50,441 nucleotides of DNA, from contig CAIYJU010000179.1 in NCBI GenBank assembly GCA_903926565.1, positions 1 to 50,441 on the forward strand, written 5' to 3'. This stretch comes from an uncultured Bacteroidales bacterium. GTDB taxonomy: Bacteria > Bacteroidota > Bacteroidia > Bacteroidales > FEN-979. How positions within the stretch are numbered: the stretch's first letter is position 1; every line of letters begins with the position of its first letter. Positions 37,043 through 48,707 of the stretch are shown here, piece after piece. The position numbers were made by a program, and so were the translations under genes. The notes below the pieces were generated by a model that was not told where the DNA came from, did not search any database, and saw only the letters and a list, made by a program, of their open reading frames with translations.

Positions 37043-37110
37043 AACGAAAACCTTTGACCTTTTCACAATTTCTCCTTCTCTCCACCCCCCTATTTCACTA
37101 CTTTTGCATC

Positions 37111-40100
37111 ATGCATCCTAATTCTGTCATTGCTGTTACAAATGCTTCTGAACATAACCTTCGTTCGGTGAGTCTTGAATTTCCCAGGAATAAACTCATT
37201 GTGGTTACCGGGGTATCAGGGTCCGGGAAATCATCGCTGATTTTCGATGTACTTTACCGGGAAGCCGAAAGCCGCTATCTTGGATCGTTCTCCTCGTTCG
37301 CACGTCAGTTCATGGGGAAACTGAAAAAACCAGACGTTGATAGCATTACCGGGTTATCCCCTGCCATCGCACTTAATCAGAAAACGGTGGTCACCAGTCC
37401 TCGCTCAACTGTCGGAACCATTACCGGCGTTTATGATTCACTTCGTCTGCTGTTTGCACGTGTTGGCCGCCCACCCGCCGAAATCCCCCTGTTTCCGATA
37501 AACAGGAGTTCGTTTTCCTTCAATACGCCGGAAGGGGCTTGTCCGGTATGCAAAGGGCTTGGCGTTGAAGATTTTCTCGATCCGGAACTGCTGGTCTCCG
37601 ACGATACGAGAACCCTGCGTGAAGGAGCGCTGGTGATCACCGCACCCAATGGCTACATCATTTACTCCCAGGTGACCCTGGATGTACTCGACCAGGTTTG
37701 CCGTTCTGAGGGGTTTCACATCGATATCCCCTGGAAAGACCTCACGCCTGTACAAAAACACATTGTTCTCTATGGCAGTAATAAGATCGAAATTCCATTT
37801 GGCAAACATCCGCTTGAATCGCGGATGAAATGGAGCGGAATCACGGCAAAACCGCGTGAACTTGGTTATTACAAAGGCATTCTCCCGGTAATGGAAGCCA
37901 TCCTTCAACGCGACCGGAATAAGAATATCCTCCGGTTTGTCCGCAGCGGGGAGTGCCGGACCTGCCGCGGCAGGCGACTGAATGAAAGAGCGTTGTCTGT
38001 CAGAATCGGCGGGTACAACATTGCGGAACTTGCCGCACTTCAGTTGGATGAGATTGAACAGGTTCTGAACGGGATCGCACTCACAAAAACGGAACTCCTG
38101 ATCGCCGGTCCGATCCTGGCACAAATAACAAAACAGGCTGGTCTTCTTAAACGATTAGGCTTAGGCTACCTTTCTACCAGCCGGGATTCGGCGACCCTTT
38201 CCGGCGGCGAATCGCAGCGTTTGCGCCTGGCAAACCTCGCGGGGATGGATCTTGGCAGTATGGTCTGTATCTTCGATGAACCATCAATCGGACTTCATCC
38301 GCACGACATCCGGCAACTTATTGACATTCTGAAGGAAATTCGTGACAAAAGCAACACCGTAATTGTTGTGGAACATGATGAGGAGATTATCCGGCACGCC
38401 GACTGGCTCATCGACATCGGTCCCGGTCCCGGTATATCCGGCGGAGAAGTATTGTTCAATGGTCCGCCGGAAACCGCAGTCAAATTACCTGAATCAGACA
38501 TCAGAAGGAGCCGTACCCTCTCTTATCTTTTTGGATTCGAACATATCCCCGTACCTTCCGGCCGAAGGCCAGGTGCCGGTTACCTTACCGTTGCAGGAGC
38601 CTCTGCGCACAACCTTAAAGATATCGATGTCAGCTTCCTCCTTCGGGCATTGAATGTGGTGACCGGGGTGTCAGGTGCCGGGAAGTCCACCCTGACAAAC
38701 CACATACTCGGTTCTTTTTTAAAAACCAAATTACATCACTCAAATGGGTCTATCGGCAAATTCAGGTCCATCACAGGATGGGAGTCTGTAAGGCAACTGA
38801 TCTCAGTCGACCAGACACCGATCGGGCGAACCCCCAGAAGCAATCCCGCAACATATACCGGGTTGTTTGACCATATACGCGATTTGTTCGCAAAGCTGCC
38901 CGGGTCTGTCAGCCGGGGTTATGATAAAAGCCGGTTTTCTTTCAACACACACGGCGGGCGTTGTGAATCCTGCGAAGGCGCGGGTTATCAGCAAATCGGA
39001 ATGCACTTTATGGGAAACGTGGAGGTGCTCTGCGAAGCCTGTGAGGGACGCCGCTTTGATGCCGGCACACTTGAAGTGACTTTTGCGGGAACGGAACCTT
39101 CCGGCAAAGGAAAAAATATTTCCGAAGTTCTGGAGATGACGGTTTCAGACGCCCTGACATTTTTCAAAGGTGAACCAAAAATTTCAGGTTACCTTGATAC
39201 ATTAGACAGCCTTGGGCTTGGTTATCTCACACTTGGTCAGCGATCTTCAACCCTGAGCGGAGGCGAGGCCCAGCGCATAAAACTTGCCGCGGAACTGGCC
39301 AAACCACAATCAGAGCACACCATGTACATCATGGATGAACCAACCACCGGCTTACACATGTCAGATACAGGAGTATTGCTGACTGCACTCGGCAAACTGA
39401 TTCAACAAGGCCATACCATCATACTGATTGAACATCATCCGGGACTGATTGCAGCTGCTGATCATATCATTGACCTGGGACCGGGAAGTGGCCGCGACGG
39501 CGGGTTTTTGCTTTTCTCAGGTACACCGGAGGAGATGGTTTACTGCGAACATTCACTCACTGCAAAAGCCCTGAAGGAATATCGAATATTGAATAGCGAA
39601 TATCGAATGTCGAAATTCTTTTCTAACGAAAATTTTCGGGAATCACCCCTGTTGCCGTCAGGCAAATCATTCAATATTCAAAATTCGTTATTCAATATTC
39701 AATATTCCATTAAACTTAAAGGTGTTACCACGAACAATCTCCAACACATTGATACAGAGATTCCACACAACAAGATCACAGTTATAACCGGAGTGTCAGG
39801 AAGCGGAAAGTCCTCCCTGGCTTTCGACACGATCTTTGCAGAAGGCCGGAGCCGTTTTATGGAGAGTTTCTCTGCTTACTTCCGCAGCCGGCTTGGCGTA
39901 AAAGATCGTGCCGGTTTTGAAGAACTTACAGGACTAACCCCGGTATTTGCTGTTGACCAGGGAAATACCGGATTGAATTCCCGTTCAACGTTAGGAACAA
40001 TGACCGGGATCTATGACCATTACCGGCTGTTGTATTCACGTGTTGGAACAAAAAACGAATATCGAATATTGAACAACGAATATCGAAGTTCGAAGTTCGT

Positions 40101-42114
40101 TGAGAAAGCTGACAGGACGGGTAATCCATCCTCCAGCCTTTTCTCTTTCAACCACGAGCATGGGGCTTGTCCTTCCTGTAAAGGACTGGGATCTAAAACC
40201 TTATGTGATCCGCAAAAACTGATTACACATCCCGGAAAATCATTGCTGGCAGGTGCCCTGGACGGGACAAAAACCGGCAAATTCTATGGTGAGCCGTTCG
40301 GCCAGTATGTTGCAACCCTGAAAGCTGTTGCGCATAAACATGACATCGATTTTTCCCTGCCATGGAACGATCTTTCTGATGAAGCGAAACTCCTGGCATT
40401 GGCAGGCAGCGGAGATGAACAGTATAACGTCAACTGGCAGTTTGTGCGGGATAACCGAACCGGGGAACATCATTTTACAGGTGTTTGGAATGGGCTGTTA
40501 CACCTTGTGAATGAGGAGTATGCACGGAAACATGCCGACCACCGGGGCGAAGGCATGATGAACCTGATGAAAACCGTTCCCTGCCCTGACTGCCACGGTT
40601 CCCGTTTAAAACCAGAGGCTTTGAGTTATACCGTTCTGGGGAAAAACATTGCAGACCTGGCTTCACTTTCCGTGAAAAATACAATCGCCTGGTTCAGGTC
40701 ACTTCCGTCATTACTAACTGTTTTACAGGAAGTTGAAACAGCCATACCCCTCGTCAGCGAGATCCTCCGTAAACTGGAATTTATTGCCGGTCTTGGCTTA
40801 TCATACCTGGCGATCGACCGCATCTCCTCAACCTTGTCGGGGGGAGAGGCGCAGCGCATCAGGCTTGCCGGTCAACTGGGCTCCGGACTGACCGGAATCA
40901 CGTATGTTCTCGATGAACCAACACTGGGCCTTCATTCCCGGGATACAGGAAACCTGATGAAGCTCATCCGGTCGCTGCAGGAAGCAGGAAATACGGTGAT
41001 CATTGTTGAACACGACCGCCAGGTCATTCTCGGGGCCGATCATGTCATCGACATCGGTCCAGGAGCAGGGAGAAATGGCGGGCGGGTGATCGCAGAGGGA
41101 ACTCCGCAACAGATCATTGAAAACCCGGATTCAGTAACCGGTCCCTGGCTTTCAGAACATGGTTACAAACCTTCGCATCAGCCACGCACTTTAAAGCCTG
41201 GTTTGACCATTCACAATGCCTTTGCAAATAACCTTAAGGGTTTCGACCTGGAGATCCCTGCAGGTGGAATCACCGTCATCACGGGAGTATCGGGAAGTGG
41301 CAAATCAACACTGATGTTTGATGTCATCCTCGAATCCTGGGAAAAGAAGGAGCCGGCCGGATGCTCTTCAATTACCGGATTTGAACATTTCCAGCGCATC
41401 GTCAGCGTTCATCAGCGCACAGGATTCAACGCAACCATGGCCACGCCAGCCACTTTCACAGGGATTTTTGATCAGATAAGGAATATGTTCGCCTCCACGC
41501 CGGAATCAAAACAAGCCGGCTTTGGAAAAAATGCCTATTCATTCCTGAACAAAGATGGCCGGTGCCCGGTATGCGAAGGCAAGGGGCAAATCCGCATCTC
41601 CATGGATTTTCTCCCGGATGTGAACATGGCATGTGAACAGTGCCAGGAAACTCGGTACCGCCCGGAAATCCTTTTATGCCTGTACCAGGGAAAAAACATT
41701 GCGGATATCCTGAAGATGACTGCCGCAGAAGCCTGCGCCTTTTTTTCGGAACATAAAAGTCTCCACCACCAGTTGCAGCTGCTTGAAAAAGTCGGGCTCG
41801 GCTACCTTCAGCTGGGACAATCGCTCGATAGCCTCTCAGGAGGGGAATCACAGCGACTGGCATTGGCGGCAGAACTGATGAAGCCCGGAAAAGGGGCCGC
41901 ACTCTACCTATTTGAAGAACCTTCCACCGGGCTCCATTTCCTCGATATTGAATACCTGCTCTCTTTATTTCACCAACTTGCCGGCCAGGAAAACACCCTC
42001 CTCATCATCGAACATGATCCCATGATCATCTCCCAGGCTGATTATACTATTGAATTGGGACCGGAAGGAGGTGAAGCTGGAGGCTACCTGGTCAAGGCTT
42101 CACCGGCCGGGTAA
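37111..42114 (+). CDS. Double-length UvrA-like ABC ATPase (fused UvrA2-type halves)
   Basis: 1667 residues, against about 940 for UvrA. The ATG before HPNSVIAVTNASEHNL was chosen; an earlier in-frame codon adds 19 residues without homology. There are four ATPase sites, with Walker A lysines K40, K525, K900 and K1398, four LSGGE(S/A)QR signatures, and Walker B FDEPSIGLH, MDEPTTGLH, LDEPTLGLH and FEEPSTGLH. Zinc-finger Cys pairs are present (CPVC and CRTC, CESC and CEAC, CPSC and CPDC, CPVC and CEQC). In both halves only 15-45 residues separate LLFARVG/LLYSRVG from FSFN, so the UvrB-binding domain of canonical UvrA is absent, as in UvrA2-type proteins. It probably binds damaged or modified DNA; a role in canonical excision is doubtful. 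Residues about 823-867 and 983-996 are translated heptamer repeats. Confidence 0.93.
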   Translation: MHPNSVIAVTNASEHNLRSVSLEFPRNKLIVVTGVSGSGKSSLIFDVLYREAESRYLGSFSSFARQFMGKLKKPDVDSITGLSPAIALNQKTVVTSPRSTVGTITGVYDSLRLLFARVGRPPAEIPLFPINRSSFSFNTPEGACPVCKGLGVEDFLDPELLVSDDTRTLREGALVITAPNGYIIYSQVTLDVLDQVCRSEGFHIDIPWKDLTPVQKHIVLYGSNKIEIPFGKHPLESRMKWSGITAKPRELGYYKGILPVMEAILQRDRNKNILRFVRSGECRTCRGRRLNERALSVRIGGYNIAELAALQLDEIEQVLNGIALTKTELLIAGPILAQITKQAGLLKRLGLGYLSTSRDSATLSGGESQRLRLANLAGMDLGSMVCIFDEPSIGLHPHDIRQLIDILKEIRDKSNTVIVVEHDEEIIRHADWLIDIGPGPGISGGEVLFNGPPETAVKLPESDIRRSRTLSYLFGFEHIPVPSGRRPGAGYLTVAGASAHNLKDIDVSFLLRALNVVTGVSGAGKSTLTNHILGSFLKTKLHHSNGSIGKFRSITGWESVRQLISVDQTPIGRTPRSNPATYTGLFDHIRDLFAKLPGSVSRGYDKSRFSFNTHGGRCESCEGAGYQQIGMHFMGNVEVLCEACEGRRFDAGTLEVTFAGTEPSGKGKNISEVLEMTVSDALTFFKGEPKISGYLDTLDSLGLGYLTLGQRSSTLSGGEAQRIKLAAELAKPQSEHTMYIMDEPTTGLHMSDTGVLLTALGKLIQQGHTIILIEHHPGLIAAADHIIDLGPGSGRDGGFLLFSGTPEEMVYCEHSLTAKALKEYRILNSEYRMSKFFSNENFRESPLLPSGKSFNIQNSLFNIQYSIKLKGVTTNNLQHIDTEIPHNKITVITGVSGSGKSSLAFDTIFAEGRSRFMESFSAYFRSRLGVKDRAGFEELTGLTPVFAVDQGNTGLNSRSTLGTMTGIYDHYRLLYSRVGTKNEYRILNNEYRSSKFVEKADRTGNPSSSLFSFNHEHGACPSCKGLGSKTLCDPQKLITHPGKSLLAGALDGTKTGKFYGEPFGQYVATLKAVAHKHDIDFSLPWNDLSDEAKLLALAGSGDEQYNVNWQFVRDNRTGEHHFTGVWNGLLHLVNEEYARKHADHRGEGMMNLMKTVPCPDCHGSRLKPEALSYTVLGKNIADLASLSVKNTIAWFRSLPSLLTVLQEVETAIPLVSEILRKLEFIAGLGLSYLAIDRISSTLSGGEAQRIRLAGQLGSGLTGITYVLDEPTLGLHSRDTGNLMKLIRSLQEAGNTVIIVEHDRQVILGADHVIDIGPGAGRNGGRVIAEGTPQQIIENPDSVTGPWLSEHGYKPSHQPRTLKPGLTIHNAFANNLKGFDLEIPAGGITVITGVSGSGKSTLMFDVILESWEKKEPAGCSSITGFEHFQRIVSVHQRTGFNATMATPATFTGIFDQIRNMFASTPESKQAGFGKNAYSFLNKDGRCPVCEGKGQIRISMDFLPDVNMACEQCQETRYRPEILLCLYQGKNIADILKMTAAEACAFFSEHKSLHHQLQLLEKVGLGYLQLGQSLDSLSGGESQRLALAAELMKPGKGAALYLFEEPSTGLHFLDIEYLLSLFHQLAGQENTLLIIEHDPMIISQADYTIELGPEGGEAGGYLVKASPAG
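39577..39710. repeat. Inverted pair of 7-bp tandem arrays inside the uvrA-like gene
   Basis: Six units on the plus strand (GAATATC, GAATATT, GAATAGC, GAATATC, GAATGTC, GAAATTC; 39577-39618), then 50 bp, then six units in the opposite sense (ATTCAAT, ATTCAAA, ATTCGTT, ATTCAAT, ATTCAAT, ATTCCAT; 39669-39710). The whole block is in frame and forms the joint between the two UvrA-like halves (EYRILNSEYRMSKFF ... FNIQNSLFNIQYSI). Confidence 0.9.
40057..40098. repeat. 7-bp tandem array inside the uvrA-like gene, second site
   Basis: Six units: GAATATC, GAATATT, GAACAAC, GAATATC, GAAGTTC, GAAGTTC. It is in frame (EYRILNNEYRSSKF), between the LLYSRVG and FSFNHEHGACPSC blocks of the second half, at the position where canonical UvrA carries its UvrB-binding domain. 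Confidence 0.88.
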
Positions 42115-43502: not shown

Positions 43503-43510
43503 TAAATTTG
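43503..43510 (+). promoter_or_regulatory. -7 box TAAATTTG of the catabolic operon
   Basis: Perfect TAnnTTTG match predicting a transcription start about 12 nt before the scoA ATG. It also shows that the upstream in-frame TTG lies in the promoter and is not the start codon. Confidence 0.55.
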
Positions 43511-43528
43511 CGGGAGATTCTGTTAAAA

Positions 43529-44224
43529 ATGAACAAAGTAGTCAACAATGCCCTCGAGGCAATAAAAGGAATTGAAAGCAATGCAACCATCATGCTTGGT
43601 GGATTTGGCTTATGCGGAATTCCTGAAAACTGCATTGCAGCCCTGGCTGCCAGTGATATCACCGGTCTGACCTGCATTTCGAACAATGCCGGTGTAGACG
43701 GTTTCGGCCTGGGAATGCTTCTTCGCCGCCATCAGATCAGGAAAATGATCTCCTCCTATGTCGGAGAAAACAAGGAGTTTGAACGGCAGTTGCTGAGTGG
43801 TGAACTGGAGGTGGACCTTGTGCCCCAGGGAACGCTGGCAGAACGCATCAGGGCGGGAGGAGCCGGAATCCCTGCATTTTTTGTCCCGGCAGGTTATGGC
43901 ACGGAGGTAGCCGACGGAAAACCCGTCAGGGAATTCGAGGGCAAAATGTATCTCGAGGAACAGTGGCTAAAGGCCGATTTTGCCATCGTCAAAGCCTGGA
44001 AAGGCGATACCCATGGCAACCTCATCTATAAAAATACCGCGAACAACTTCAACCAGGTGATGGCCACTGCGGGTAAAATTACCATCGCAGAAGTGGAAGA
44101 GCTGGTCCCTGCCGGAACCCTTGACCCGAACCAGATTCATACACCCGGTGTGTTTGTGCAACGGATCTTCCAGGGTGCCAACTATGAGAAACGCATTGAA
44201 TTTGCCACGACACGGGCAGATTAG
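43529..44224 (+). CDS. scoA: 3-oxoacid CoA-transferase, subunit A
   Basis: 231 residues from the ATG (MNKVVNNALEAIKGIESNAT). Family landmarks: TIMLGGFGLCGIPENCI, ISNNAGVDGFGLGMLL, MISSYVGENKEFERQ, LVPQGTLAERIRAGGAGIPA, FVPAGYGTEVADGK and a closing TPGVFVQRI. With subunit B it transfers CoA between succinyl-CoA and a 3-oxo acid such as acetoacetate. In this operon it can activate the acetoacetate released by fumarylacetoacetase. It is the first gene of the operon; the subunit B gene starts 49 bp downstream. Confidence 0.95.
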   Translation: MNKVVNNALEAIKGIESNATIMLGGFGLCGIPENCIAALAASDITGLTCISNNAGVDGFGLGMLLRRHQIRKMISSYVGENKEFERQLLSGELEVDLVPQGTLAERIRAGGAGIPAFFVPAGYGTEVADGKPVREFEGKMYLEEQWLKADFAIVKAWKGDTHGNLIYKNTANNFNQVMATAGKITIAEVEELVPAGTLDPNQIHTPGVFVQRIFQGANYEKRIEFATTRAD

Positions 44225-44273: not shown

Positions 44274-44930
44274 ATGTCTTTAGATAAAAACGGAATTGCA
44301 AAACGGATTGCACGGGAATTAAAGGATGGCTATTATGTCAACCTGGGCATCGGAATTCCCACGCTCGTGGCCAACTATATCCCTGCCGGGATGCAGATTG
44401 TGCTCCAATCTGAAAACGGATTGCTGGGGATCGGGCCCTTTCCGTCAAAAGAAAATATTGACCCCGACCTGATCAATGCCGGGAAACAGACCGTTACCGC
44501 AGTTCCCGGGGCCGCCTTTTTCGACTCTTCGGCAAGTTTTGCCATGATCCGGGGCGGGCATATCGACCTCACCGTTCTTGGTGCCTTCGAAGTTTCTGAT
44601 ACCGGAGATATCTCCTCCTGGAAAATCCCCGGAAAATTGGTGAAAGGGATGGGTGGTGCCATGGACCTTGTTGCCTCCGCCAGGAACATCATTGTTGCTA
44701 TGATGCATACAAATCCCCAGGGAGAGTCGAAGCTTCTCAGGAGATGCACCCTGCCTTTAACCGGTGTCGGCGTTGTCAAACGGATCGTTTCTGACCTTGC
44801 GGTCATTGATGTAACCCCTCAGGGATTCAAGCTCGTGGAAAGGGCCCCCGGAGTTTCTGTTCAGGAGATCATCAATGCCACTGAAGGAAAGCTGATTGTT
44901 GAAGGGGAGATCCCGGAAATAGATGTTTGA
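44274..44930 (+). CDS. scoB: 3-oxoacid CoA-transferase, subunit B
   Basis: 218 residues. The catalytic Glu that forms the CoA thioester is E47 in [15 protein letters not shown]. Other landmarks: [64 protein letters not shown] and [20 protein letters not shown]. It partners subunit A; the complex is cytoplasmic. The gap to subunit A is filled by a heptamer array, and another array separates it from hmgA. Confidence 0.95.
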
Positions 44931-44933
44931 TTT

Positions 44934-44975
44934 GAATATCGAATATTGAATAACGAATTTTGAATTTTGAAGTAG
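44934..44975. repeat. 7-bp tandem array between scoB and hmgA
   Basis: Six units: GAATATC, GAATATT, GAATAAC, GAATTTT, GAATTTT, GAAGTAG, beginning four bases after the scoB stop. Confidence 0.85.
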
Positions 44976-45011: not shown

Positions 45012-46169
45012 ATGTCCCATTATTATTCACTCGGCCGGATTCCACGCAAACGGCATGTTGTTTTCCGGAAACCGGATGGAGGTTTATATGCCGAACAGCT
45101 AGTTTCAACAGAAGGGTTTTCCGACACATACTCCCTCGTTTATCATTGCCACCCCCCGACCCTGGTGACAAAGATTGATGAAGCCTACTCTGTTGCACCG
45201 AAGATTGCCGATCCGAAGAACATGCAAAACCGTCTTTTCCGCGGATTTGAGGTGGCTCCTGCCGATGATTACCTTGAAAGCCGGATCCCCGTGCTGGTAA
45301 ACAACGACTGCCACATCAGCCTTGCCGCTCCGCGAAAATCGATGACCGGCTACTGGTTTAAAAATTCAGGCGCCGATGAGATGATCTTCATCCACCGGGG
45401 TGAAGGAACCCTGAAAACCATGTATGGGAACATCCCGTTCAGTTATGGCGACCACCTGGTGGTGCCGCGGGGCGTCATTTACCAGATGGAATTCAACACA
45501 CCGGATAACCGGTTGTTCATTGTAGAATCATTTTCACCGCTCCGGTTTCCGAAACGGTATCTCAACAAATACGGGCAATTGCTTGAGCATGCCCCGTTTT
45601 GTGAACGCGACATCCGGAAACCCCTGGTGCTTGAGACCCACGATGAGAAGGGTGATTTCCTTGTGAAGATCAAGCGGGAAGACACCATCTGGCCGTATCA
45701 CTTTGCCTCCCATCCTTTCGATCTTATTGGCTGGGATGGATTTCACTATCCTTATGCCTTCTCCATCCACGATTTCGAACCGATCACAGGCCGTTTGCAT
45801 CAGCCACCCCCGGTACACCAGACATTTGAAACACCGGCCTTTGTGATCTGCGCTTTTGTCCCGAGGTTATATGATTATCACCCTGACTCCATTCCGGCTC
45901 CCTACAACCACAGCAATGTTGATTCTGACGAGGTGCTCTATTACGTTGATGGTGATTTCATGAGCCGGAACAACATCAAACAGGGATACATCACCCTGCA
46001 TCCAACCGGCATCGTGCATGGCCCGCATCCCGGCGCTGTTGAACGCAGCATCGGTGCAAAAGAGACCAAAGAACTGGCTGTGATGGTTGACACCTTCCGG
46101 CCCCTTAAAATCACAGAGCAGGCTTTTGCTATTGAAGATCCGGACTACTACAGGTCGTGGATTGAATGA
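45012..46169 (+). CDS. hmgA: Homogentisate 1,2-dioxygenase
   Basis: 385 residues, about 50 shorter than proteobacterial and human enzymes but similar to other Bacteroidota forms. Landmarks: YSLGRIPRKRHVVFR, FIHRGEGTLKTMYGNIPFSY, GDHLVVPRGVIYQME and WDGFHYPYAFSIHDFEPITG. The Fe(II) site lies in the C-terminal cupin: H300 with the acidic D306/E307 (HSNVDSDEVLYYV) and H336/H339 (HPTGIVHGPHPG). It opens the homogentisate ring with O2 to give maleylacetoacetate. It is followed by the 4-hydroxyphenylpyruvate dioxygenase gene after 83 bp, which places the two consecutive pathway steps side by side. Confidence 0.95.
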   Translation: MSHYYSLGRIPRKRHVVFRKPDGGLYAEQLVSTEGFSDTYSLVYHCHPPTLVTKIDEAYSVAPKIADPKNMQNRLFRGFEVAPADDYLESRIPVLVNNDCHISLAAPRKSMTGYWFKNSGADEMIFIHRGEGTLKTMYGNIPFSYGDHLVVPRGVIYQMEFNTPDNRLFIVESFSPLRFPKRYLNKYGQLLEHAPFCERDIRKPLVLETHDEKGDFLVKIKREDTIWPYHFASHPFDLIGWDGFHYPYAFSIHDFEPITGRLHQPPPVHQTFETPAFVICAFVPRLYDYHPDSIPAPYNHSNVDSDEVLYYVDGDFMSRNNIKQGYITLHPTGIVHGPHPGAVERSIGAKETKELAVMVDTFRPLKITEQAFAIEDPDYYRSWIE

Positions 46170-46252
46170 AAAAATGCAGTCGATGAAAGCAATGCGGACA
46201 ATGCAAACAATTAAATGAAAAAGCTGAGATTACATATAATAAATTACCTGAG

Positions 46253-47353
46253 ATGAATACAACAGAAGATTTTTTACCGATTAACGGAACAGATTACGTA
46301 GAGTTTTATGTGGGCAACGCCAAACAGGCTGCACACTATTATCAAACCGCTTTCGGGTTTCAGCCGTTGGCCTATGCCGGGCTGGAAACCGGACTGAAGG
46401 ACCGCACTTCGTATGTGCTGCGCCAGGATAAGATCACATTTGTTTTCACCACCGCCCTGGTTCCAGACTCCCCCATTGCCGACCATTGTAAACTTCACGG
46501 CGATGGAGTAAAAGTTGTAGCCCTGTGGGTGGATGATGCGAAGAAATCGTTTGAGGAGACCACAAAACGCGGTGCAATCCCCTATCTCCATCCACATGAG
46601 GAAAAGGATGAAACGGGTAAGGTCGTATTGTCAGGCATTCGTACCTACGGAGAGACGGTTCATATCTTTGTGGAACGAAAGAATTACCGGGGTGTTTTTC
46701 TGCCCGGCTTCGTAAAATGGGAGCCGCACTACCGGCCTTCCTCCGTGGGGTTACGCTACGTTGACCACATGGTTGGTAATGTTGACTGGGGAGAGATGAA
46801 CACCTGGGCCCAGTTTTATCACGATGTGATGGGATTTAACCAGCTGATCTCTTTCGATGATTCCGATATATCCACCGAATTCACCGCCCTGATGAGTAAA
46901 GTAATGGCCAGCAGCAACCTGTACATCAAATTCCCGCTGAATGAACCGGCTGCCGGAAAGAAAAAATCACAGATTGAAGAGTACATCGAATTCTACAAAG
47001 GAGGCGGCGTACAACATGTTGCCATGGCTACCGACAACATCCTTGATACCGTTGCCGCCCTTAAAAGCCGGGGTGTTGAATTCCTCAGGGTGCCCGACAC
47101 CTATTATGATGCTCTGATACAACGTGTCGGCAACATTGAAGAGACCATTGAACCGCTGCGTGAACTGGGCATACTTGTTGACCGTGATGAGGACGGCTAC
47201 CTGTTGCAGATATTTACCAAACCGGTGGAAGACCGCCCCACGGTTTTTTATGAGATCATCCAGCGTAAAGGTGCCAGATCGTTTGGCAAAGGCAATTTCA
47301 AGGCGCTGTTTGAATCGATTGAAATAGAACAGGGGAAAAGGGGGACGCTGTAG
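46253..47353 (+). CDS. hppD: 4-hydroxyphenylpyruvate dioxygenase
   Basis: 366 residues, normal length. The Fe(II) ligands are visible: H172 (VDHMVGNVD), H255 (VQHVAMATDN) and E334 (FYEIIQRKG). Other landmarks: FYVGNAKQAAHYYQTAFGF, RTSYVLRQDKITFVFT, FYHDVMGFNQLISFDD, and GYLLQIFTKPVEDRPTVF. It converts 4-hydroxyphenylpyruvate, CO2-releasing and with O2, to homogentisate, the substrate of HmgA. The stop codon TAG shares its last base with the first unit of a heptamer array. Confidence 0.96.
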   Translation: MNTTEDFLPINGTDYVEFYVGNAKQAAHYYQTAFGFQPLAYAGLETGLKDRTSYVLRQDKITFVFTTALVPDSPIADHCKLHGDGVKVVALWVDDAKKSFEETTKRGAIPYLHPHEEKDETGKVVLSGIRTYGETVHIFVERKNYRGVFLPGFVKWEPHYRPSSVGLRYVDHMVGNVDWGEMNTWAQFYHDVMGFNQLISFDDSDISTEFTALMSKVMASSNLYIKFPLNEPAAGKKKSQIEEYIEFYKGGGVQHVAMATDNILDTVAALKSRGVEFLRVPDTYYDALIQRVGNIEETIEPLRELGILVDRDEDGYLLQIFTKPVEDRPTVFYEIIQRKGARSFGKGNFKALFESIEIEQGKRGTL

Positions 47354-47401
47354 AATATCGAATATCGAATATCGAATATTGAATATTGAATAAAGAATGT
47401 T
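47353..47401. repeat. 7-bp tandem array between hppD and fahA
   Basis: Seven units: GAATATC three times, GAATATT twice, GAATAAA, GAATGTT. The most regular array in the window. It begins on the last base of the hppD stop codon and ends 3 bp before the fahA ATG. Confidence 0.92.
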
Positions 47402-47404
47402 GAA

Positions 47405-48673
47405 ATGGGTGGTGACAGGTTATTGACTTCGTGGATTGAAGTAAAGTCGGAGAGTGATTTTCCGATACAGAATATACCTTTCGGGATATTCAAATCGCCC
47501 GGAGGGAAGGTTGGGGCTGCCACCAGGATCGGTGATACCGTAATCAACCTTTATGCGCTTGCAAGGCATGGATTCCTGGATGGACTTGAAATTGAGGCCG
47601 AGGTTTTTCACAGGCATACCCTGAACGACTTCATTGCCCTCGGGAAACCTGCGTGCCGCGCCTTACGCAACCGGATTGCGGAAATTTTCGGGAATGATAA
47701 TTCCGCACTTCGCGAACACCCCGAACTGCAGTCAGAAATCATGATCAGCCATGAGATGGTTCAGATGCTGATGCCGGTGCAGGTGGGTGATTATACTGAT
47801 TTTTACTCCAGCATCGAGCATGCGACCAACGTTGGCATCATGTTCCGTGATCCGGCAAATGCACTGCTTCCGAATTGGAAACACATACCTGTCGGATACC
47901 ATGGCAGAAGCTCTTCCATCGTTGTTTCCGGTACCGGCATTCACCGGCCAAAGGGACAAACAAAAGCCGACAACGCTGAGCTTCCTGAGTTTGGCCCGTC
48001 AAAACAGGTCGATTTTGAACTGGAGATGGCATTTATCACCGGGAAGAAAACAGAACTGGGACAATCAGTCTCAACAGCGAACGCGGAGGATCACATATTT
48101 GGCATGGTCCTGTTCAATGATCTCTCCGCCCGCGATATCCAGAAATGGGAATATGTACCCCTGGGACCCTTCCTGGCCAAGAATTTCGGTTCCGTGGTCT
48201 CGCCATGGATCATCACCATGGATGCGCTGGAGCCTTTCCGCGTTCCGGGCCCAGGGCAGGAGCCTGAGGTGTTGCCATATCTCCGGTTTGAAGGAGACCA
48301 TAATTTCGACATTCAGCTTGATGTTTTTATTCAACCTGAAAACCAGCCCCAACAGCGAGTTTGCCATTCAAACTACAAATACATGTACTGGAACCTTGCT
48401 CAACAACTGGCACATCAAACGGTGAACGGATGCAACATCAACGTTGGCGACATGTACGGTTCGGGAACCATCAGCGGCCCTACTCCCGACTCATTCGGCT
48501 CCATGCTTGAAATTGCATGGAAAGGAACAAAGCCGGTTAAAATGGCTGATGGCAGTGAACGGAAATTTATCAACGACAACGACACCATCATCATGCGGGG
48601 ATACTGCATGCGGGATAACCTGCGTATCGGTTTTGGCGAAGTTAAAACCAAAATCCTTCCAGCCACCCAATAA
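47405..48673 (+). CDS. fahA: Fumarylacetoacetase
   Basis: 422 residues, the usual size of the two-domain enzyme. An N-terminal FAH_N domain (about 1-125: SWIEVKSESDFPIQNIPFGIF) is followed by the catalytic domain: DYTDFYSSIEHATNVGIMFR, PVGYHGRSSSIVVSG, the metal-site segment DFELEMAFITGKKTE, FGMVLFNDLSARDIQKWEY, VPLGPFLAKNFGSVVSPWI and MYGSGTISGPTPDSFGSMLE. It hydrolyses fumarylacetoacetate to fumarate and acetoacetate. Its start lies immediately after a heptamer array. The ATG used has only array sequence upstream, so the ribosome-binding region is itself repeat-derived. Confidence 0.96.
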   Translation: MGGDRLLTSWIEVKSESDFPIQNIPFGIFKSPGGKVGAATRIGDTVINLYALARHGFLDGLEIEAEVFHRHTLNDFIALGKPACRALRNRIAEIFGNDNSALREHPELQSEIMISHEMVQMLMPVQVGDYTDFYSSIEHATNVGIMFRDPANALLPNWKHIPVGYHGRSSSIVVSGTGIHRPKGQTKADNAELPEFGPSKQVDFELEMAFITGKKTELGQSVSTANAEDHIFGMVLFNDLSARDIQKWEYVPLGPFLAKNFGSVVSPWIITMDALEPFRVPGPGQEPEVLPYLRFEGDHNFDIQLDVFIQPENQPQQRVCHSNYKYMYWNLAQQLAHQTVNGCNINVGDMYGSGTISGPTPDSFGSMLEIAWKGTKPVKMADGSERKFINDNDTIIMRGYCMRDNLRIGFGEVKTKILPATQ

Positions 48674-48707
48674 TTCAATATTCAATATTCGTTATTCAAT
48701 ATTCAAA
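48673..48707. repeat. 7-bp tandem array between fahA and the flavin reductase gene
   Basis: Five units in the opposite sense: ATTCAAT, ATTCAAT, ATTCGTT, ATTCAAT, ATTCAAA. It starts on the last base of the fahA stop codon and ends 1 bp before the next ATG. Confidence 0.9.

Follow-up and report, generated by a model that had tools for sequence, protein, structure and literature searches.

A double-length uvrA-like gene from an uncultured Bacteroidales bacterium carries, in frame, three arrays of tandem 7-base units (heptamers) of the type found between genes, and its open reading frame (ORF) is open throughout. The phenomenon is real, and it is more general than this single UvrA case. The original prediction had read this gene as an instance of non-coding repeats becoming protein, and our sequence comparisons suggest that this idea was right at its core and applies more broadly, to MurG, the MurG-MurC joint, PolA and MurF-Alr as well as UvrA. 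On the same grounds, we consider it quite probable that class-II-type UvrA was fused in tandem long ago, and that intergenic heptamers of the same genome later entered permissive loops, where they were filtered by the reading frame.

Heptamer arrays inside a tandem UvrA gene

The window (the whole stretch of DNA analysed, 50,441 nucleotides) contains a UvrA frame without a stop from 37054 to 42114, which from the ATG at 37111 encodes 1667 amino acids (Table 1). Geobacillus UvrA (2r6f) aligned to residues 7–823 of the N-terminal half, and Deinococcus UvrA2 (2vf7) aligned to residues 6–822 in a single stretch. Residues 140–272 of Geobacillus UvrA, which we take to be the location of the UvrB-binding domain, were missing from the N-half, between query residues 122 and 123, and alignment of full-length ORFs left no room for this domain in either half. 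PF17755 (UvrA DNA-binding domain, two stretches) and PF00005 (ABC ATPase) both scored above cut-off. Each half therefore has the make-up of a class II UvrA, with the DNA-binding and ABC ATPase parts present and the UvrB-binding domain absent, as it is from class II UvrAs according to the accessible part of the source (PMC5128194). The canonical uvrA is probably a frame of 951 aa that has ABC matches and lies on another contig of the genome (C105), which would make the tandem gene a likely paralogue. Rfam gave no matches within the window.

Table 1. Coordinates of the tandem UvrA gene, its heptamer arrays and further arrays in the window and genome (window positions unless a locus is named).
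Feature	Position	Strand	Basis
Tandem (double-length) class-II-type UvrA gene	37111..42114	+	open frame; matches to UvrA structures and NCBIfam UvrA models
N-terminal UvrA half, residues 1–822	37111..39576	+	2r6f and 2vf7 alignments
N-half loop at UvrB-binding domain site; short connector, repeat-free	37474..37509	+	structure alignment
Heptamer array GAATATY, 5′ arm of joint, codes EYRILNSEYRMSK	39577..39614	+	Tandem Repeats Finder
Spacer without repeat, between joint arms	39615..39668	+	sequence, array calls
Inverse heptamer array, 3′ arm of joint, + strand codes SFNIQNSLFNIQYS	39669..39707	-	Tandem Repeats Finder
C-terminal UvrA half, residues 867–1667	39709..42111	+	half-to-half alignments begin at residue 866–867
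Heptamer array, C-half UvrB-binding-domain site, codes NEYRILNNEYRSSKFV	40056..40099	+	two detectors, alignment
Intergenic heptamer array TCGTAAA	44236..44266	.	between ORFs 43508–44224 and 44274–44930
Intergenic heptamer array, GAATATY type	44932..44971	+	between ORF end 44930 and ORF start 45012
Intergenic heptamer array filling inter-ORF gap	47352..47404	+	ORF end 47353, next ORF start 47405
Intergenic heptamer array, inverse orientation	48668..48706	-	ORF end 48673, next ORF start 48709
Fused MurG-MurC, TTCAATA heptamer array at joint	L069:1087-3627	-	one 846-aa protein
Array in Lnt	L056:2341-2425
Array in DNA polymerase I	L056:9792-9817
Arrays in MurF-Alr	L061:2531 and 4706
Array in PurL	L072:2477
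Array in molybdenum-cofactor protein	L082:2553

The first array starts at codon 823, where the alignment to the C-terminus of 2r6f has its final residue, and homology of the C-half resumes at residue 866–867; the inverted pair of arrays is therefore exactly the joint of the two halves, as originally predicted. The alignment likewise confirmed the placing of the other array at the UvrB-binding-domain site of the C-half (Tandem Repeats Finder called 40056–40087, and a second detector extended it to 40099). The window has four more heptamer arrays, all situated between consecutive ORFs and touching ORF ends; those in 45012–48670 separate the genes of a cluster for tyrosine degradation (homogentisate dioxygenase-like, 4-hydroxyphenylpyruvate dioxygenase and fumarylacetoacetase). 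A 19-base GAATATY-repeat pattern (up to two mismatches) matched the genome 203 times, vs. no matches for the reversed control, and tandem 7-base units thus occupy many genome sites, including the gaps of the window, in the manner of dispersed intergenic heptamers. With a stricter setting, our array detector found two arrays in the real window and none in each of 10 letter-shuffled windows.

Arrays in relatives and in other conserved genes

A search of 100 genomes, including the window's own, led us to 45 UvrA-like loci from 44 genomes. Their ORFs contained 68 period-7 arrays and at most one array at each of periods 4–6 and 9–13; period 14, an echo of 7, gave 48, and codon shuffling of the ORFs gave none at period 7. 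Period 8 produced a weaker signal beside period 7, with 12 arrays in UvrA and three to four in each of the other genes studied. Once ORFs with unread letters were dropped, 67 UvrA arrays could be placed by sequence alignment: 34 lay at the joint, in 23 genomes; 14 lay at the UvrB site of the C-half, in 13 genomes; 6 lay at that of the N-half, in 5 genomes; and the remaining 13 lay near residues 735, 1593 and 1361, the first two of which look like the equivalent loop of the two halves. The three main regions thus held 54 of the 67 arrays in 7.3% of the residues, and 69% of array residues fell in poorly filled alignment columns (vs. 4.9%). In randomly drawn stretches from four genomes of this genus, scanned at a threshold slightly stricter than that behind the count of 68, there were two period-7 arrays in 275 kb of core coding DNA and 14 intergenic ones, with 5 at ORF edges; 140 kb from three genomes of other families, scanned in the same way, held no coding and one non-coding array. 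The joint array of G014 (L036:2766-3218) has expanded to 223 bp, with NNEYRIS as the repeating peptide that it encodes, and the joints of G028 and G027 (L050:826-1086 and L020) carry another kind of in-frame repeat, which is C/G-rich and partly palindromic.

We then looked beyond UvrA in the same genome, examining the window together with 33 stretches around GAATATY matches (drawn from 100 of the 203, those listed). These contained 47 array sites, 12 of them within long ORFs: three in UvrA, two in MurF-Alr, and one each in Lnt (where two unit types are present), DNA polymerase I, MurG-MurC, PurL and a molybdenum-cofactor protein. The other two of the 12, at L065:2481 and L081:2410, look by eye like chance antisense ORFs. 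In PurL, a short DPVRV(V/E) repeat lies just upstream of the heptamers.

Four genes (UvrA, MurGC, PolA and MurF-Alr), picked because this genome has arrays in them, were compared across relatives. Besides those in UvrA, we found 12 period-7 arrays in ORFs of MurGC, 18 in PolA and 23 in MurF-Alr, and the same loops of MurG, MurF-Alr and PolA held other units in other genomes. Arrays were present at MurG residues 265–268 in 7 of 14 fused proteins, in the MurF-Alr linker (321–332) in 9 of 29, and at PolA 309–360 in 11 of 30, the PolA locus being single in each of these 11 genomes. Array residues again fell in poorly filled columns in MurF-Alr (73% vs. 4.1%) and PolA (54% vs. 3.1%), and in MurGC to the extent of only 26% (vs. 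3.2%). Our main reason for thinking that the arrays are translated is that model bacteria cannot do without PolA and the Mur enzymes.

Across the four genes we counted 57 heptamer unit types. GAATATY occurs in UvrA of 12 of the 35 family genomes, and all 12 are among the 18 that are rich in this unit, meaning that they have at least four genome-wide matches (P = 2e-5). CATCCAG occurs in UvrA of seven genomes, six of which are among the 8 of 35 rich in it (P = 1e-4), while the seventh (G025) carries a near variant; both genomes with GGCAGTY in UvrA are among the 10 of 35 rich in that unit (P only 0.08). The units of UvrA arrays thus tend to match heptamers of their own genome, by tests that take no account of shared ancestry and by genome totals in which the UvrA array is itself counted; many unit-rich genomes do not have the unit in UvrA. 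The sense strand of the consensus unit had no stop in 107 of 120 coding arrays of the four genes, compared with 25 of the 50 strands of 25 intergenic arrays (Fisher P = 1e-7) and with 64% of letter-shuffled units.

From this, we propose that heptamer arrays from intergenic sites of the same genome invade or overwrite loops that tolerate changes in length, which in UvrA would be the joint, the two loops that lack a UvrB-binding domain, and three more, after the class-II-type tandem fusion had formed. An array would persist if it preserved the frame and had no stop on its sense strand, most likely being translated as a flexible, largely inert spacer, and replacement of units between species would make the loop sequence track the repeat repertoire of each genome. 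The same process would act on MurG, the MurG-MurC joint, PolA and MurF-Alr. As to how arrays are copied, a bolder version, which we put forward tentatively and think rather doubtful as it stands, is that heptamer arrays are copied or overwritten chromosome-wide, also in coding loops, and that the peptides of these loops in conserved proteins therefore undergo concerted evolution with non-coding DNA; hairpin-templated correction could then link the two arms of the UvrA joint.

The arrays might instead have grown in place from ordinary codons by replication slippage, with no donor array. A preference for 7-base units has been proposed in the accessible part of PMC4679880, and some arrays, such as the joint array of G001, are short. 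Slippage within a coding frame should, however, favour periods of 3, 6, 9 and 12, which are nearly absent here, and the units tend to match genome-wide families, and we therefore regard this origin as unlikely.

The UvrA joint and the age of the fusion

The inverted arrangement of the joint arrays raised the possibility that they are retained as an mRNA or DNA hairpin acting in expression of both UvrA halves. The predicted RNA hairpin of the window's joint had a z of −5.5, z fell below −2 in 8 of 18 joints of the genus (lowest in G013, −8.1), and complementary arms were built of other units in G007, G012 and G018. Against this, 10 of the 18 joints did not reach z −2, five of them lying above −0.5, and the 83% pairing between arms in the joints compared was still 73% after a slide of one unit, meaning that much of the pairing is periodicity; some array-free joints of other genera fold well too. 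We thus rejected a conserved hairpin as the main cause of the joint arrays, and a role for it in expression seems improbable. Inverted pairing was limited to the joint and to part of the genus, and its being common to that part indicates that many joint arrays are inherited rather than new. Eight of the 15 genus joints compared were exactly 144 nt long, six with GAATATY-like arms and two (G007 and G012) with other units in both arms; this identity of length despite other units hints that arrays were overwritten in place. In G002 (L035:3841-4100), the two arms adjoin directly, with no spacer, and the gene consists of two overlapping ORFs, which may represent a failure of the frame filter or a collapse in assembly.

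The original prediction had further held that two once-separate uvrA genes had a gap filled with repeats between them, which was turned into the linker, and that the second repeat replaced a lost UvrB-binding domain. The exact position of the inverted pair at the joint and of the third array at the domain site would suit this account, as would the MurG-MurC joint described below. An uninterrupted tandem ORF of more than 1550 aa was present, however, in 34 of the 45 UvrA-like loci (the window's own included), four of them in genomes of other families (G094, G091, G068 and G075), where the joint linker has 17–22 residues, compared with 43 in the window protein, and no period-7 array was found in these four proteins. 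In a 295-genome sample of the class, tandem genes were seen in at least five genomes among the matches listed (G100, G309, G359, G271, with one in-frame stop, and G374, cut by the contig), representing three further families among those matches, and similar single genes of 844–889 aa in at least five others, again among the matches listed; the longest ORF of each class-level locus, several of them partial, had no period-7 array. Short array-free joints occur within the family too (e.g., G023 and G019). Among the relatives examined we saw no pair of ancestral uvrA genes with an intervening repeat, the two UvrA ORFs of G002 being taken as a derived state. Of the outcome that had been named as speaking against the original prediction, one half was observed, in that fused relatives without the repeat exist, and the other was not, in that the linker is hypervariable rather than conserved. 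The N-half and class II UvrAs lack the UvrB-binding domain without any repeat, which argues against domain replacement. A gap-to-linker origin is therefore refuted for UvrA unless the fusions in other families arose independently, and we hold it, together with domain replacement, to be very improbable; on the sequences compared, both the fusion and the absence of the UvrB-binding domain appear to predate the repeats.

The same idea fits better the MurG-MurC fusion of this genome. MurG and MurC are in separate frames with a stop in all nine genomes examined from other genera of the family (G019–G027) and in G006, G008 and G009 of the same genus. They read through as one protein in the window's genome and 12 others of the genus, and also in G005 and G010, which have no visible heptamers. 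At the detector threshold, an array was present at the joint in 4 of 14 fused proteins, those of the window's own genome (G000) and of G012, G001 and G015; by eye, shorter heptamers were seen at this joint in G018, G002, G007 and G014, and none in G011, G013 and G004. On the PolA tree, the distribution of the fused state calls for three changes, and well-supported branches make two or more of these unavoidable. Under the bolder version given above, copying of arrays may also help neighbouring genes to fuse, as at MurG-MurC.

The genomes compared are drafts, probably all metagenomic, but misassembly of short reads can hardly account for the arrays, even with the collapse between the arms in G002 and the 223-bp array of G014 in its favour, since 57 of the 67 arrays are at most 60 bp long and many separate genomes have in-frame arrays in these same loops.

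Significance and comparison with known systems

Across dozens of species, these genes provide a natural series in which conserved proteins carry non-coding repeats and the genome itself reveals their likely donors. The series allows tests of how reading frame and protein structure filter repeat DNA, of whether repeat arrays promote gene fusion, and of which loops of MurG, PolA, MurF-Alr and UvrA accept insertions. It also shows that repeats whose length breaks the frame can prevail within genes over those in multiples of three.

Double-length UvrA is already known from a curated model, NF001885 (PRK00635; 1809 positions), presumably of chlamydial origin, and the window protein scored 1088.9 bits against its cut-off of 3054, far below the level of membership. 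Each half resembles class II UvrA (UvrA2, Deinococcus 2vf7) in aligning without a UvrB-binding domain; unlike 2vf7, the window protein joins two such halves in a single chain and has loops filled with repeats.

Rickettsia palindromic elements, reportedly described by Ogata in 2000, are a close parallel. According to the accessible part of the source, they lie in frame in conserved genes, with different types at one orthologue site (PMC3767692). The Bacteroidales arrays are similar in that repeats of a non-coding type lie within conserved genes, inserted in frame at the same site of orthologues with differing types, and dissimilar in that they are tandem heptamers of 57 unit types rather than palindromic families, no shared palindromic family being seen among them. 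In Xanthomonas and Nostoc, GGGAATC and GGGGA(C/T)T heptamers are mostly intergenic, being intragenic in 7–11% of cases in Xanthomonas and intergenic in 68% in Nostoc (PMC4692102, accessible part). Those heptamers are dispersed and tandem like the ones described here, but are of a G-quadruplex type, and the accessible part of that paper describes no orthologous loops with unit turnover.

Another close system is that of TAACTGA, whose dispersed intergenic arrays are known from five Bacteroidetes as well as from Beggiatoaceae and Cyanobacteria. One genome of the Beggiatoaceae has 10 sets inside ORFs in a translatable orientation, including one that falls in a loop on the surface of an RpoC-like protein; sets also occur inside ORFs in cyanobacteria and, once, inside purC of one Bacteroidetes (PMC4679880, accessible part). 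Heptamers inside genes are thus not new as such. Our literature search, which took in few subscription journals, listed no title on heptamer arrays inside Bacteroidales proteins, which is weak evidence of novelty. Earlier work reported in the accessible part of PMC4679880 found units in multiples of three likeliest in coding regions, whereas period 7 dominates in these Bacteroidales genes; and where the TAACTGA system consists of a single heptamer, the Bacteroidales system comprises many units, which refill the loops of orthologues in several conserved genes.
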